A stretch of 64,000 bases of DNA, taken from NCBI GenBank assembly GCA_016214035.1, contig JACRPF010000014.1:186001-250000 (forward strand), written 5' to 3'. The position numbers and the translations under genes were made by a program. This document shows positions 30,518 to 36,204 of this stretch, piece by piece. The notes below the pieces were generated by a model, which was given only the letters and a program-made list of their open reading frames with translations, had not been told where the DNA came from and did not search any database. How positions within the stretch are numbered: position 1 is the stretch's first letter; every line of letters begins with the position of its first letter. Origin of the DNA: Spirochaetota bacterium. GTDB lineage: Bacteria; Spirochaetota; Brachyspiria; Brachyspirales; JACRPF01.

Positions 30518-31210
30518 ATGAAACACATCATCTTTCTTTCCCTTTTCGCCAGCATCGCAATCCAGGCATTCTCGCAGGCCGCAAACCCTGTTGCGGTATT
30601 CAAATTCGACGAAGGCACAGGAACAGCTGTTAAAGACACCGCAGGTGTTTTTAAGGGTGAAATAAAGAATGCGCAATGGGCCGACGGAAAAAGCGGAAAA
30701 GCGCTTGCATTTTCAGGTTCGAATTCATATGCGGCCATAAAATTCACGAATCTTGACGGCGGTTTCACATTCATCGCATGGACAAAACCGAATGCGATAC
30801 CGGCTGATCTTCCGTTTGGCGAAACATCGATTGTCGCGCGCCCCGGATTTCACAGCTCAATCGCATATACAACGGCGAAGAAATTCTTCTTCAATTACTG
30901 GACAACGAATAACCGCAATGTCGTCGCAATGTCATCGGATGAAAGCCCTTCCGACGCATGGTATCATGTCGCCGGCGTTTATGACAAAACAGCCGGAAAA
31001 ACGTTCATCTACGTGAACGGCGAATTGAAAGGCACTGCCGTTTCACCTGAAGGCACAGAAATCCGGAAATATGATGCGGTGCTTTATATCGGCTGCGGCA
31101 CGACAGGCGGAAAATATGCCGGATGGTATACCGGTGCTGTCGATGACGTGAAGGTTTTCAGCCGCGCGCTTACCGCGGATGAAGTCCGTTCGGAATTTGC
31201 GGCACAGTAA
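30518..31210 (+). CDS. secreted single LamG/concanavalin-like domain protein
   Basis: A 230-aa exported protein: signal peptide MKHIIFLSLFASIAIQAFSQ, then essentially one LamG (laminin G-like jelly roll) domain. Marks are VAVFKFDEGTGTAVKDTAG, GKALAFSGSNSYAAI, WYHVAGVYD, IYVNGEL and the closing GAVDDVKVFSRALTADEV. Such domains bind glycans or mediate surface contacts. It carries no catalytic domain, so it may be a lectin or a surface protein. ATG 30518 follows AAGGAG. Confidence 0.88.
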   Translation: MKHIIFLSLFASIAIQAFSQAANPVAVFKFDEGTGTAVKDTAGVFKGEIKNAQWADGKSGKALAFSGSNSYAAIKFTNLDGGFTFIAWTKPNAIPADLPFGETSIVARPGFHSSIAYTTAKKFFFNYWTTNNRNVVAMSSDESPSDAWYHVAGVYDKTAGKTFIYVNGELKGTAVSPEGTEIRKYDAVLYIGCGTTGGKYAGWYTGAVDDVKVFSRALTADEVRSEFAAQ

Positions 31211-32826: not shown

Positions 32827-32899
<73 letters not shown>

Positions 32900-32902
32900 G
32901 AT

Positions 32903-33862
32903 CTAAATTCGAGAGCGGATATTATCATGCTTGGCGGGAAATTGCAAATCCTGTGAACGTTTCTGCCCATCTGCCGTCTCCGTACGCACCGCATTTGCCT
33001 GGCGGAATTTCTTCGGCGGGCAGCCGGCGGCACGATGGAACGTGCGTTCAAAATTTGACAGGTCATGGAAACCGGATTCAAAACAGATATCGGTAACCGT
33101 GAGCGTGGAAAACGAGAGCAGTTTCTTCGCATAATCAATGCGCGTTTCGGTCAGATATTCAACGAATGTCTTCCCGGTAATCCGCTTGAAGAGTACGCAG
33201 AAATATTCCTTCGTCATCGTCCCGTGGCGTTTTATTATCTCTTCAAGCGTAATGCGTTCCCGAAAGTGCCGGTTCACATAGGCGATACTGTCGAAAACGA
33301 CACGCGATTTTTTCGACATGCGCTGCGACAATGCTGCGGCTGCGTCCTTATGCGCATCGTAAAAACGTACCAGTGTTATCAGAAGATCGGTGAGCTTTGC
33401 TTTCAGTGCAATTTCAAATCCGGCGGGCCGTTTTTCATACTCTTCGAGCATCTCATGAAGCAACCCGCGCACTTTGACGTCAGCCATGCCGTCAAGATGC
33501 AGTTTTGCATAGCCCTCGCGCTGGAATGGACGCATATGAATGAATTCGACAAAACGGTCAACCTTTTTCGCGAGCGCAAAATGCGATTCAAGGAATGACT
33601 GTGTAAAAATGCAGGTGATAATTTCTACAGCGTTCGACCCAATCTGCGAAAATGCATGTTCATGGTCGGGATTCATCACATAGAGGTCACCCTTATTCAG
33701 CACGGATACTTTTCCGTTCAGATGATGCTGACCCGTACCGCCGTTCACGTAGAAAAATTCAAGGAATTCATGACGATGCGGGGGGAAATCCGTATGCGAA
33801 TACTTTTTTATCATAAAGGGGAATTCCTGCTCCAGGAATTCCTCTTTTGTCAGTACTTTCAT
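32903..33862 (-). CDS. AraC-family transcriptional regulator with cupin sensor
   Basis: The product is 319 aa. A cupin domain at about 10-120 (HTDFPPHRHEFLEFFYVNGG, GDLYVMNPDHEHAF) is followed by a linker and a double helix-turn-helix domain with the AraC signature near DICFESGFHDLSNFERTFHRAAG and CPPKKFRQ. About 28 extra residues, polar and basic, follow the usual end of the fold and overlap the tRNA-Thr promoter. It is the last gene of the tlpA-csgG/barrel-lipoprotein operon; its start lies nine bases after the lipoprotein stop. Confidence 0.92.
   Translation of the reverse strand: MKVLTKEEFLEQEFPFMIKKYSHTDFPPHRHEFLEFFYVNGGTGQHHLNGKVSVLNKGDLYVMNPDHEHAFSQIGSNAVEIITCIFTQSFLESHFALAKKVDRFVEFIHMRPFQREGYAKLHLDGMADVKVRGLLHEMLEEYEKRPAGFEIALKAKLTDLLITLVRFYDAHKDAAAALSQRMSKKSRVVFDSIAYVNRHFRERITLEEIIKRHGTMTKEYFCVLFKRITGKTFVEYLTETRIDYAKKLLSFSTLTVTDICFESGFHDLSNFERTFHRAAGCPPKKFRQANAVRTETADGQKRSQDLQFPAKHDNIRSRI
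32919..32947 (-). promoter_or_regulatory. tRNA-Thr promoter inside the end of the araC gene
   Basis: Minus strand: TTGCAA (32947-32942), 17 bases, TAATAT (32924-32919), 20 bases before the mature tRNA. It is encoded within the last codons of the AraC gene. Confidence 0.55.
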
Positions 33863-33871
33863 CGCCGCGGA

Positions 33872-34012
33872 TCAGCGGTTGGTGAATATAAGCTGATTGG
33901 TCTGCGCGGTAAGCTCGAACGGCGAGTTGTATGCCGGATAATCCGGACTGCAGCTGAGCATAAGCATTCCGGCAAGCAATGCGGTTATTACGAATGATAC
34001 TGCTAGTTTCAT
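33872..34012 (-). CDS. 46-aa lipoprotein
   Basis: A short gene that is easy to miss. ATG 34012 follows AGGA by eight bases. The product has a Lys, a hydrophobic stretch (LAVSFVITALLAGMLMLS) and then Cys, a relaxed lipobox (LMLSC), leaving about 26 mature residues. It would be lipidated and anchored in a membrane. It lies between the CsgG/barrel gene (15 bases) and araC (nine bases), so it may be an accessory of the envelope protein. No family is known to me. Confidence 0.7.
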   Translation of the reverse strand: MKLAVSFVITALLAGMLMLSCSPDYPAYNSPFELTAQTNQLIFTNR

Positions 34013-34027
34013 GGTCATCATCCTCGC

Positions 34028-35572
34028 TTAATCGAATAGTACCGCGGCGCCGATACTGATGGTCACGCCGTCGGGATCGTAATATACGGTGCTGCCGTTT
34101 TTATCAAGGCCTTCGCCCATATTGAAGATCGGTATCGGGAGAATAGAGCCGTATTTCGCCTCGGCATATACAAGCAATTCCTTGTCGAGTGCATATCCGA
34201 GACCGGCACCCGCTTCCCATCCAAGCCCCATATACCAGTTGCCGAGATCATCGGCATACGGCTTGCTGAACAGTTTTACCGTTTCATGCATCGTATACAC
34301 TTTGACGCCGCCGAAGCCGTACAAATTGATACTCCAGAGGTTAATGTTCATCCGCATACCGCCCGCATAATTCCCCATGAATATCGTGCTTTTGGCGATA
34401 TTTGTCCCCATGACGCGGAATTCCGGATGACTTGCATAATCAATACGCTCGGTTGTTGTGAGATCGGAACGATCAACCGTATTGTTGAAAAGGAATGTCA
34501 TATCGAAATAATACGAAAAGAGCGTCGTGCCGAACCATGCAAAATTGAACTGAAAATTGGCGGGAAACAGCTTCCCGAAATAGTCCACATCACTTGGCAC
34601 AAAGATGCCGAGTCCGAAGCGGAAGCCGTTGTCTTCCATGTACGACCCTGAAGAGCGATATGACGATGAACCGCTGGACTGTCGTCTTCGTTCCTCGTCC
34701 TGACGTTTTCGCTCCTCGTCTTCGCGTTTGCGGTCCTGCTCTTTCCGTTTTTCCTCATCAACGCGCCGCATATCCTCTTCCATCTTTTTTTTCATATCGG
34801 CAATCTTTTTATCGATATTCTCGACGAGGAGGATGACATCGTTCTGCTGCACCTGGTCGGCACCGTCAACGATCTCGCATTTTGACGCCGTCTCTTCCGG
34901 CTGCAGCACCTTGAGTTTTCCAATGCGCGTTTTCTCGTTAAACGTGCGGCCGCCTGAGAGTTTGATGACTTTAATCCGGTATACCTCGAACTGGCTGTCA
35001 CGTTCGATTTTATTTTTCGAACCGAGATTGATATAAGCGGATTTACCGTCCTTATATTCAATAAGCCCCTGAACCCGTATCTTGGCGATCATTTCGATGA
35101 CGCTCAATTTTGCCGCGAGCATGAGCCCGTCCTCGGTAGCCTCCTGCTGCGCAGTATCAATGATAGTGCCGCGCTCGCCCTCGCGCATTGACAAAATGTT
35201 CAGCGATATGGTATAGCGGCTGCCGATGCGTGTCAGCGTTCCGTAGAACAGATAGGTGATCTGCAATGCGCCCGCCATTTCCTGAAGACACGACAGATTA
35301 TTACATCCCTCAGAGCCGTATTCCATTTTTTTCTGTGTGGCTTTTTCCATATTGGCAAGCTCGGATTCAATCGTCTCCCGATCTTTAACCTTGAACTTGC
35401 CGGCGGATATCAATACCGCCTGAATCGCTTCCGTCAAAGTGCCCGCCAACGCATCGCTTGCGCCGCCCTTAACGGTTAATTTCCGGACAGTAGTGGTGAG
35501 CTCTTCCGACTCCTGAGCAAACAGCGTAACGCTGAAAGCAGCCAGTAGGAGCAGTGCAAGTAGACGTTTCAT
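34028..35572 (-). CDS. CsgG-like protein fused to an outer-membrane beta-barrel-like domain
   Basis: The product is 514 aa. A signal peptide (1-20) is followed by a CsgG/TolB-like N-terminal domain (about 25-165) with a Cys pair (C90, C95) in GCNNLSCLQEM. About 165-250 is a small beta domain like the FlgT C-terminal domain. About 250-300 is a highly charged Glu/Lys/Arg segment, probably a helix or coiled coil, followed by a Ser-rich linker. About 315-514 has alternating aromatic beta strands ending in AAVLFD, consistent with an eight-strand-type barrel. The parts are familiar but the combination is unusual. It is likely an envelope or outer-membrane assembly factor. Confidence 0.68.
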   Translation of the reverse strand: MKRLLALLLLAAFSVTLFAQESEELTTTVRKLTVKGGASDALAGTLTEAIQAVLISAGKFKVKDRETIESELANMEKATQKKMEYGSEGCNNLSCLQEMAGALQITYLFYGTLTRIGSRYTISLNILSMREGERGTIIDTAQQEATEDGLMLAAKLSVIEMIAKIRVQGLIEYKDGKSAYINLGSKNKIERDSQFEVYRIKVIKLSGGRTFNEKTRIGKLKVLQPEETASKCEIVDGADQVQQNDVILLVENIDKKIADMKKKMEEDMRRVDEEKRKEQDRKREDEERKRQDEERRRQSSGSSSYRSSGSYMEDNGFRFGLGIFVPSDVDYFGKLFPANFQFNFAWFGTTLFSYYFDMTFLFNNTVDRSDLTTTERIDYASHPEFRVMGTNIAKSTIFMGNYAGGMRMNINLWSINLYGFGGVKVYTMHETVKLFSKPYADDLGNWYMGLGWEAGAGLGYALDKELLVYAEAKYGSILPIPIFNMGEGLDKNGSTVYYDPDGVTISIGAAVLFD

Positions 35573-35598
35573 AATATCACATCCTCCACGAACAGGAA

Positions 35599-36204
35599 TT
35601 ATTTGATGCTTTCTAATGCAGATACGAGCGCATGTTCGATTTCTTTTTTGCCTGTATCATCCCTATCGAACCAGCCGGCATGATCATACACATTGTTTCC
35701 GTTCGCATCTATGATGACCAGATGCGGTGTTGCTACGACACGTTTTGCTTTAAAGTCGGTAGCGAACTTATGATATACGTACGGACTCTTTTCAAGAATG
35801 TTCCAGTCAAGATAATAGGCAGCCTTTTTCCAATCAACACTGTCTTTCACGTCGGCAAACATCGCTTCAATTTTTTTTGATGAGAATTTCATGCCGAATT
35901 TATAATCGCTGCCGAGTGAGCCGAGCCCTTCGATGCCGACATGAAGAAAGACAAGCTCCATGCCTTTTTCACGGTATTTCTCATACAGCGATGCAAGAAT
36001 CGGCATTTCTTTCATACAGTTTTTGCAGTCCCAGGTAAAAAAGCTCAGTACCGCAACCTTGCCTGAAAAACCGGAAAGCGATAATTTTTTCCCGGTTGAT
36101 GCGTTACCGTAGGGCACCATGAATGACGGTGCCTTTACGGGTTCAGCGGCAGATAACATTGTAAACGTTAGCACAAGAATCGAAAAGGATACGAATAATT
36201 TCAT
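35599..36204 (-). CDS. TlpA/ResA-like thioredoxin-fold exported protein
   Basis: A 201-aa protein with a signal peptide (FVSFSILVLTFTMLSAAE) and a thioredoxin fold. The redox motif is W-D-C-K-N-C in FFTWDCKNCMKEMP, and the cis-Pro region is VVATPHLVIIDANG. TlpA-type proteins act outside the cytoplasm as thiol reductants. The next gene encodes a protein with a close Cys pair, a plausible client. ATG 36204 follows GGAAG. It is first in a four-gene operon ending in araC. Confidence 0.87.
   Translation of the reverse strand: MKLFVSFSILVLTFTMLSAAEPVKAPSFMVPYGNASTGKKLSLSGFSGKVAVLSFFTWDCKNCMKEMPILASLYEKYREKGMELVFLHVGIEGLGSLGSDYKFGMKFSSKKIEAMFADVKDSVDWKKAAYYLDWNILEKSPYVYHKFATDFKAKRVVATPHLVIIDANGNNVYDHAGWFDRDDTGKKEIEHALVSALESIK

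Follow-up and report, generated by a model that had tools for sequence, protein, structure and literature searches.

The stretch of DNA analysed here, 64,000 nucleotides from a Spirochaetota bacterium (assembly GCA_016214035.1, contig JACRPF010000014.1, positions 186,001 to 250,000; hereafter the window), carries four co-directional genes on the minus strand which encode, in order, a redoxin/TlpA-like protein, a CsgG-like protein, a small lipoprotein and an AraC-type regulator, and which might together constitute an envelope module built around an outer-membrane adaptor. The redoxin gene (35599..36204, ATG at 36204) encodes a putative periplasmic thiol protein of 201 amino acids (aa) with a signal peptide, a WDCKNC sequence and a TPH at aa 159-161; it has both a thioredoxin-fold match (Pfam AhpC-TSA, expectation value (E) 2.1e-11; Redoxin, 6.8e-11) and a CxxC, and the NCBIfam ResA and TlpA models match it below their cut-offs. 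The CsgG-like protein of 514 aa (34028..35572) has a signal peptide without a lipobox and is made up of a CsgG-like head, a FlgT_C-like segment, a charged helix and a putative barrel. The lipoprotein gene (33872..34021) gives 49 aa from its first ATG and 46 aa, as in the initial annotation, from the third in-frame ATG, at 34012, where a GAGG is better spaced. The last gene of the operon, for a 319-aa AraC-type regulator with a cupin domain (32903..33862; Pfam HTH_18, 6.7e-20), lies outside the interval 33872-36204 that this annotation covered. Its description of the gene order and short gaps is nevertheless borne out, the intergenic gaps being 26, 6 (15 with the 46-aa lipoprotein start) and 9 bases.

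We refer to the window's genome as G000, to the other genome of the same family as G001 and to individual loci by L-numbers. G001 (locus L039) keeps all four genes together in the same order and direction, with a lipoprotein of 49 aa; co-occurrence, whose absence from relatives would have refuted the initial annotation, is thus found in the one other genome of the family sampled. Identity between window and G001 is 55% for the redoxin, 59% for the CsgG-like protein (aa 6-514), 39% for the lipoprotein and 51% for AraC, and synonymous change is far above non-synonymous change in all four genes. Because the order is intact in G001 and all four genes have this substitution pattern, the arrangement is, as read from the two sequences, more than chance. 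The genes flanking the unit differ between the two genomes by a reading of open reading frames (ORFs), so that the four genes form a conserved unit as far as seen. Genes were called with a simple longest-ORF script, in which antisense ORFs hid the G001 redoxin and lipoprotein. Among 60 relatives a full-length ortholog of the 514-aa protein was present in G001 only, the sole other family genome sampled. When aa 160-375 of this protein served as query against 392 phylum genomes, no further ortholog came up, and the matches outside the family were weak, many of them in the FlgT_C-like region; two back-translated pattern scans of the genome contig collection likewise found no relatives of it.

Around the unit, a tRNA gene (32827-32899) follows the AraC gene, and the upstream flank is a ribBA-type gene directed away, for which Pfam detects both enzyme domains. 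Further off, on the plus strand, 30518-31210 by eye encodes a secreted LamG-like protein (NCBIfam TafC 2.9e-8, far under the cut-off).

The CsgG-like protein, its subfamily and the redoxin

The head of the 514-aa protein (about aa 25-166; 35075..35500, minus strand, as are all features of the four genes) resembles CsgG, LpoB and the N-terminal domain of TolB. The protein has no Pfam match over cut-off and is absent from the 43 PF03783 matches of its genome, and its relation to CsgG comes via paralogs in the same genome (best E 7.5e-12). At E up to 0.1 the paralogs scanned match the CsgG family PF03783 in 9/9 cases, all above its cut-off and mostly along the first half of the model, LpoB in 8/9, TolB_N in 5/9 and FlgO in 3/9.

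These paralogs share a cysteine pair in a GCTxxxCAV motif, and we call them the Cys-pair subfamily. As a DNA pattern, GCT[DE]xxCAV occurs in 28 of the 392 phylum genomes, with 25 sites in the window genome and none for the reversed pattern. A first look at 198 phylum genomes gave the window genome the most CsgG-like candidates (55, the next having 32), in a scan that scored the best 14 per genome, so that true counts elsewhere may be higher. Judged by these patterns and counts, the subfamily is expanded in the window genome. The window protein would carry a variant of the pair, C90/C95 (GCNNLSCL; 35288..35305), which misses the strict GCTxxxCAV-type expression; its G001 ortholog has both cysteines without the glycine. 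On this alignment of motifs the pair is a subfamily trait and not a mark of this operon. The CsgG-like genes compared below were found with a hidden Markov model (HMM) of 29 Cys-pair heads from G000, the window's included, and the sample leans to the Cys-pair type. Redundancy was removed for identical CsgG-like proteins only, so that the counts still include three pairs of Cys-pair genes with 87-91% identity, and since related genes are non-independent the p-values given here are optimistic.

We also weighed a true oligomeric secretion pore of the CsgG type, as the initial annotation had suggested. Such a pore would fit the distant CsgG relation and the small partner in the operon, and according to PMC7304575 the N-terminal loop of CsgF (RNPNF) lines the CsgG lumen. 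The window head, however, aligns with insertions of only 3 and 8 residues, as compared to about 27 extra residues between two weakly aligned segments in E. coli CsgG; the alignment of the head to E. coli CsgG is itself weak, and the HMM used included the window protein. The head thus shows no long insertion at what we take to be the pore-hairpin positions of CsgG. Most paralog matches end near position 104 of the 210 of the CsgG model, and the lipobox cysteine that would provide the lipoprotein anchor of CsgG is missing from the signal peptide. We therefore rejected the pore and give it very little credence.

Downstream of the head, aa 176-247 (34832..35047) form a weak FlgT_C-like segment, missed by the initial annotation, with a related region in other phylum members. 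Its scores (17.5 bits, E 0.0059, in the window; 19.4 bits, E 0.0014, in the G001 ortholog) are below the cut-off of 27 bits, and the protein does not qualify as a FlgT. From these comparisons it appears to be neither a CsgG channel nor FlgT, and it is best named a divergent member of the Cys-pair CsgG-like subfamily. The highly charged helix described earlier was found as claimed: in the linker (34676..34819) 36 of 40 residues from aa 259 are E, K, R, D or Q, and a single-sequence model predicts a helix over aa 253-299 with a predicted local distance difference test (pLDDT) score of up to 88 in the block. When the PDB was searched with the sequences of the window protein and its ortholog, the 13 matches returned at E up to 10 fell on the charged helix or beside it, and none was convincing.

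Turning to the redoxin, its CKNC motif (C60-C63; 36016..36027) is invariant in the G001 ortholog. Nine redoxin-like ORFs occur in the loci read, and five are immediate neighbours of CsgG-like genes (5/198 neighbours as against 4/1165 ORFs elsewhere, p 0.005). The five loci are that of the window, which is the only such case in its genome, two in G057 and one each in G069 and G127; the four non-window loci adjoin Cys-pair genes in two other families, and AhpC-TSA was confirmed in the two that were scanned. One of the G057 loci (L158) repeats the window order of redoxin, CsgG-like protein and lipoprotein, the last reading SSANPVYVLNG, which the tag expression introduced below does not match. The earlier suggestion that the cysteine pair is a client of the TlpA-like protein gains from the redoxin genes beside Cys-pair genes at these four loci; it loses in that the pair, with its 25 genome sites, is not special to the operon. 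The redoxin neighbours in two other families modestly support a link between Cys pair and redoxin.

Alternatively, the redoxin and the Cys pair might sense envelope oxidative stress, with AraC providing the response. It is true that redoxin and AraC share a conserved operon and that redoxin genes recur beside CsgG-like genes, but the immediate neighbours displayed at the other four redoxin loci do not include AraC, G000 contains at least 150 AraC-type genes, and the two upstream regions have no common word longer than 10 bases; we regard such a sensing device as quite improbable. The AraC-type HTH_18 genes number at least 150 each in G000 and G001 (225 and 257 candidates before scoring), and AraC as part of a wider subfamily theme was dropped on that account. 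An AraC-type gene thus belongs to the conserved operon and might serve as its regulator, but this does not extend to the wider family.

Several CsgG-like fusions deserve mention as side observations. L072:2370-6026 and L081:2088-5270 have a caspase-like N-terminus by eye, and each is immediately preceded by a sigma-factor-like gene plus a short second one that looks anti-sigma-like. L070:4579-6468 and L113:3474-5534 combine a CsgG-like part with Kelch-like repeats and are followed by a cobalamin adenosyltransferase-like gene (again by eye), a pair kept in G000 and G001.

Tagged partners and membrane modules

The gene right after a Cys-pair CsgG-like gene often encodes a product in which RDNPLDPG, NNPFDP, NPADKK or a similar motif comes after the signal peptide; we call this motif the NPxDP-type tag. 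A relaxed expression for this tag matches 19 of 31 downstream genes as compared to 18 of 479 other genes, and the strict NP[LFVIM]DP 7/31 as compared to 3/479. The relaxed expression was fixed first and then applied to other genomes. In the window genome it matches 16/24 genes after Cys-pair genes, 4/7 after other CsgG-like genes (the window gene being counted among these seven), 3/18 lipoproteins elsewhere and 14/393 other ORFs; the corresponding figures are 4/8, 0/3, 0/6 and 6/139 for G001, and 13/46, 1/26, 0/40 and 21/650 for the other genomes. For genes after Cys-pair genes against lipoproteins elsewhere, Fisher's test gives p 0.0015 in the window genome and 1.2e-4 in the other genomes. 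Searching G000 DNA for NP[LF]DP gave 12 sites, as compared to 0 for the reversed control; ten are lipoprotein N-termini and two are not, and nine of the ten share an operon with a CsgG-like gene, from which two are separated by one intervening gene, the tenth lacking one in the stretch read.

What follows the tag is diverse: 48 tagged partner bodies fall into 21 BLAST clusters, and of six partners scanned with Pfam, repeats of the Kelch, FG-GAP or NHL type were present in three, the other three having nothing over cut-off. The tag is retained on some partners that have no lipid cysteine. At least one of the 50 partners positive by the expression (that behind L232) looks like a false match.

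The mature form of the window lipoprotein, CSPDYPAYNSPFELTAQTNQLIFTNR, carries NSPFE (33914..33928), where other partners have R-[DN]-N-P-[FLYN]-D-P, and the ortholog pair has lipobox sequences LMLSC and VAVGC with a conserved cysteine, as predicted for a lipoprotein. Window and G001 agree at 15 of 26 mature residues, FTNR ending both. The proportions of non-synonymous and synonymous differences in the mature part (pN 0.283, pS 0.820) led us to drop the idea of a chance ORF. The peptide looks like a near-bare tag, a stripped-down form of the NPFDP type, and this would not be unique to the window given the short NP-bearing lipoproteins after Cys-pair genes in G049 (51 aa, SNPYPED) and G165 (57 aa, VNPEPAR). 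As an aside, the exported proteins encoded after these two tiny lipoproteins, which belong to two families (L249:2165-3219 and L163:372-2015), share an N-terminal region at 46% over 81 aa.

The C-terminal part of the 514-aa protein (aa 314-514, ending AAVLFD; 34031..34633) is a putative outer-membrane beta-barrel. Its last 200 residues contain no clear transmembrane helix, and 11 alternating hydrophobic segments were counted as compared to a shuffle mean of 5.3, a count reached by 3 of 1000 shuffles; for the G001 ortholog the signal is weak (9 against a mean of 5.6, reached by 63 of 1000). The OMP_b-brl model gives a non-significant E of 0.69, and single-sequence structure models (mean pLDDT 37 and 31) were unusable for the fold. 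On the segment pattern a C-terminal barrel is plausible. Across the subfamily, 85 of 103 Cys-pair proteins (101 by expression, plus the window protein and its G001 ortholog) end in F, W or Y, as compared to 90 of 819 other ORFs above 150 aa, which is as expected for outer-membrane insertion.

Two short proteins with no detectable CsgG-like head stand directly before a tagged partner, one in G000 (L259) and one in G001 (L253). The L253 protein is homologous to the C-terminal parts of 10 CsgG-like proteins (best 4.2e-19) and the L259 protein to those of 12 others (best 1.6e-23), the two lists being disjoint. Partners in the L253 class are lipidated with NPxDP-like tags in 10/10 cases; those in the L259 class are of a non-lipidated kind (ASLFxxK...NPxDxK) in 11/11 listed, of 12 module matches, one having a cysteine in a poor lipobox. 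Each head-less protein conforms to its own class of module and tag. Because each type of module is paired with its own type of tagged N-terminus, these homologies point to the membrane module as the companion of the tag. Sorting the tag classes by whether a transmembrane helix was present told us nothing, and only the homology classes separated. At L099 a 167-aa gene that lies after a CsgG-like gene and before a tagged lipoprotein was considered as a third head-less candidate; it had no module similarity and was excluded. Separately, a 153-aa protein without a CsgG-like head (L077:1031-1492) matches the L253 module at 4.6e-7, a possible further stand-alone module.

These data bear on another reading, in which the protein would be a scaffold in the periplasm, comparable to LpoB, FlgO/FlgT or the TolB N-terminus, its head binding an envelope enzyme and the lipoprotein stabilising or regulating the scaffold, with no export. 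The paralog scores on the LpoB, TolB_N and FlgO models and the FlgT_C-like segment speak for it; left unexplained are the recurrent tagged partners of many bodies and the head-less modules before tagged partners, and we consider a scaffold of this kind unlikely.

A proposed mechanism

Taken as a whole, the observations are best explained, in our view, by a four-gene envelope module comprising a tag-docking outer-membrane adaptor, a redoxin for its disulfide and control by AraC, to which we assign a probability of roughly 0.45. The 514-aa protein would be the adaptor, anchored in the membrane by what is probably a small C-terminal barrel and exposing its CsgG/LpoB/TolB-N-like head to the periplasm. 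Chiefly by its membrane module, the adaptor would dock the N-terminal NPxDP-type tag of its partner near the lipid anchor, and docking would position, and perhaps export, the cognate partner. The redoxin may form or repair the C90-C95 disulfide, and AraC might adjust expression of the operon. As the window partner is little more than a tag, an accessory or plug peptide seems likelier than a cargo with an activity of its own; the suggestion of the initial annotation that the lipoprotein is cargo or plug gains ground, since the lipoprotein carries a version of the tag seen on many partners.

We tentatively extend this to a dedicated handling route across the phylum, a possibility we regard as rather less likely than not, in which each Cys-pair protein would be a private receptor or exporter for its NPxDP-tagged partner and the window would represent a stripped-down, redoxin-serviced version. 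The module would be the essential half, because it can precede a tagged partner without the head and because module class matches tag class.

Several observations weigh against the adaptor. The window's NSPFE fits the relaxed pattern only, not the rarer strict NP[LFVIM]DP, and the relaxed expression was composed with NSPFE already known. By that expression 33 of the 46 Cys-pair genes of other genomes are without a tagged follower, some through crude gene calls or variants. Redoxin-like genes are immediate neighbours at just 5 of 165 CsgG-like genes. The window protein and its G001 ortholog end in F-D and not in an aromatic residue, the window module falls outside both co-segregating classes, and co-segregation of module and tag could also reflect jointly duplicated gene pairs. 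Some tagged lipoproteins (L135 in G000, L255-L257 in G001) have no CsgG-like gene next to them in the stretch read, and KNNPNDP just after the cysteine is found in lipoproteins of three of the four f2 genomes opened (L261-L263), all without the Cys-pair pattern. By eye, L135, L256 and L257 have Kelch-like repeats.

These neighbourless lipoproteins make a general sorting motif a live rival. The tag would then be an N-terminal element, for sorting or as a spacer, of the phylum's outer-membrane lipoproteins in general, the window lipoprotein would be an ordinary small one, and the tag would turn up beside CsgG-like genes only since lipoproteins of this sort happen to be encoded there. A looser DNA pattern, [ND]NPxDP, is far more widespread than the Cys pair (242 as against 28 of 392 genomes); when 11 of its sites were opened in genomes without the pair, lipoprotein N-termini were 3/4 in f2 and 0/7 elsewhere, the latter telling against a general element. 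Among the eight G001 sites, two are beside CsgG-like genes, one is behind the head-less module, three are neighbourless lipoproteins and two are non-lipoproteins. By these counts the tag is enriched beside CsgG-like genes and not exclusive to them. Its rarity in lipoproteins not downstream of CsgG-like genes, its persistence on partners without a lipid cysteine and the agreement of tag class with module class all argue against the general element, which we regard as doubtful.

Significance and known systems

In diderm bacteria, how lipoproteins arrive at the surface and are retained there is still an open question. If the tag-docking adaptor is real, a portable N-terminal peptide with a neighbouring outer-membrane receptor gene would amount to a sorting code open to testing, while binding and structural work could use a lipoprotein that is by nature tag-only as a ready minimal ligand. 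Should the motif merely be a general lipoprotein element, it would still offer a sequence handle on a large unannotated group of secreted proteins. No description of operonic tagged partners of Cys-pair CsgG-like proteins was found in the literature searched, a weak absence given that few subscription papers were covered; titles found for NPFDP or NPLDP were unrelated, no paper there combined CsgG with TolB, LpoB and FlgT or CsgG with HfaB and a lipoprotein, and among the matches listed for CsgG and spirochaetes (title and start of abstract) none had such gene pairs.

A CsgG relative with operonic surface partners is familiar from HfaB of the Caulobacter holdfast anchor. The curli pair CsgG-CsgF of E. 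coli is similar in its CsgG-related head and in a small operonic partner with an Asn-Pro motif in the mature N-terminus. This N-terminus of CsgF, GTMTFQFRNPNF, lines the CsgG lumen according to PMC7304575. In contrast to CsgG, the window protein has no sign of pore hairpins and no lipobox, and adds FlgT_C-like and membrane modules; CsgF, unlike the window lipoprotein, has no lipobox cysteine. As nothing in the window protein suggests a pore for such a peptide to line, the parallel is an analogy only.

The lipoprotein export signal (LES) of Bacteroidota, K-(D/E)2 or Q-A-(D/E)2 according to PMC5080379, is likewise a short N-terminal motif common to different lipoproteins and directs their surface export. 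It differs in that the motif here is NPxDP and is tied to a neighbouring gene, surface export of the present partners being a conjecture. Finally, the LpoB, TolB-N and FlgO-FlgT adaptors share with our proteins the similarity of paralogs to their models and the weak FlgT_C-like segment of the window protein, whereas the Cys-pair subfamily is set apart by its tagged partner, its cysteine pair and a membrane module at the C-terminus whose last residue is mostly aromatic.

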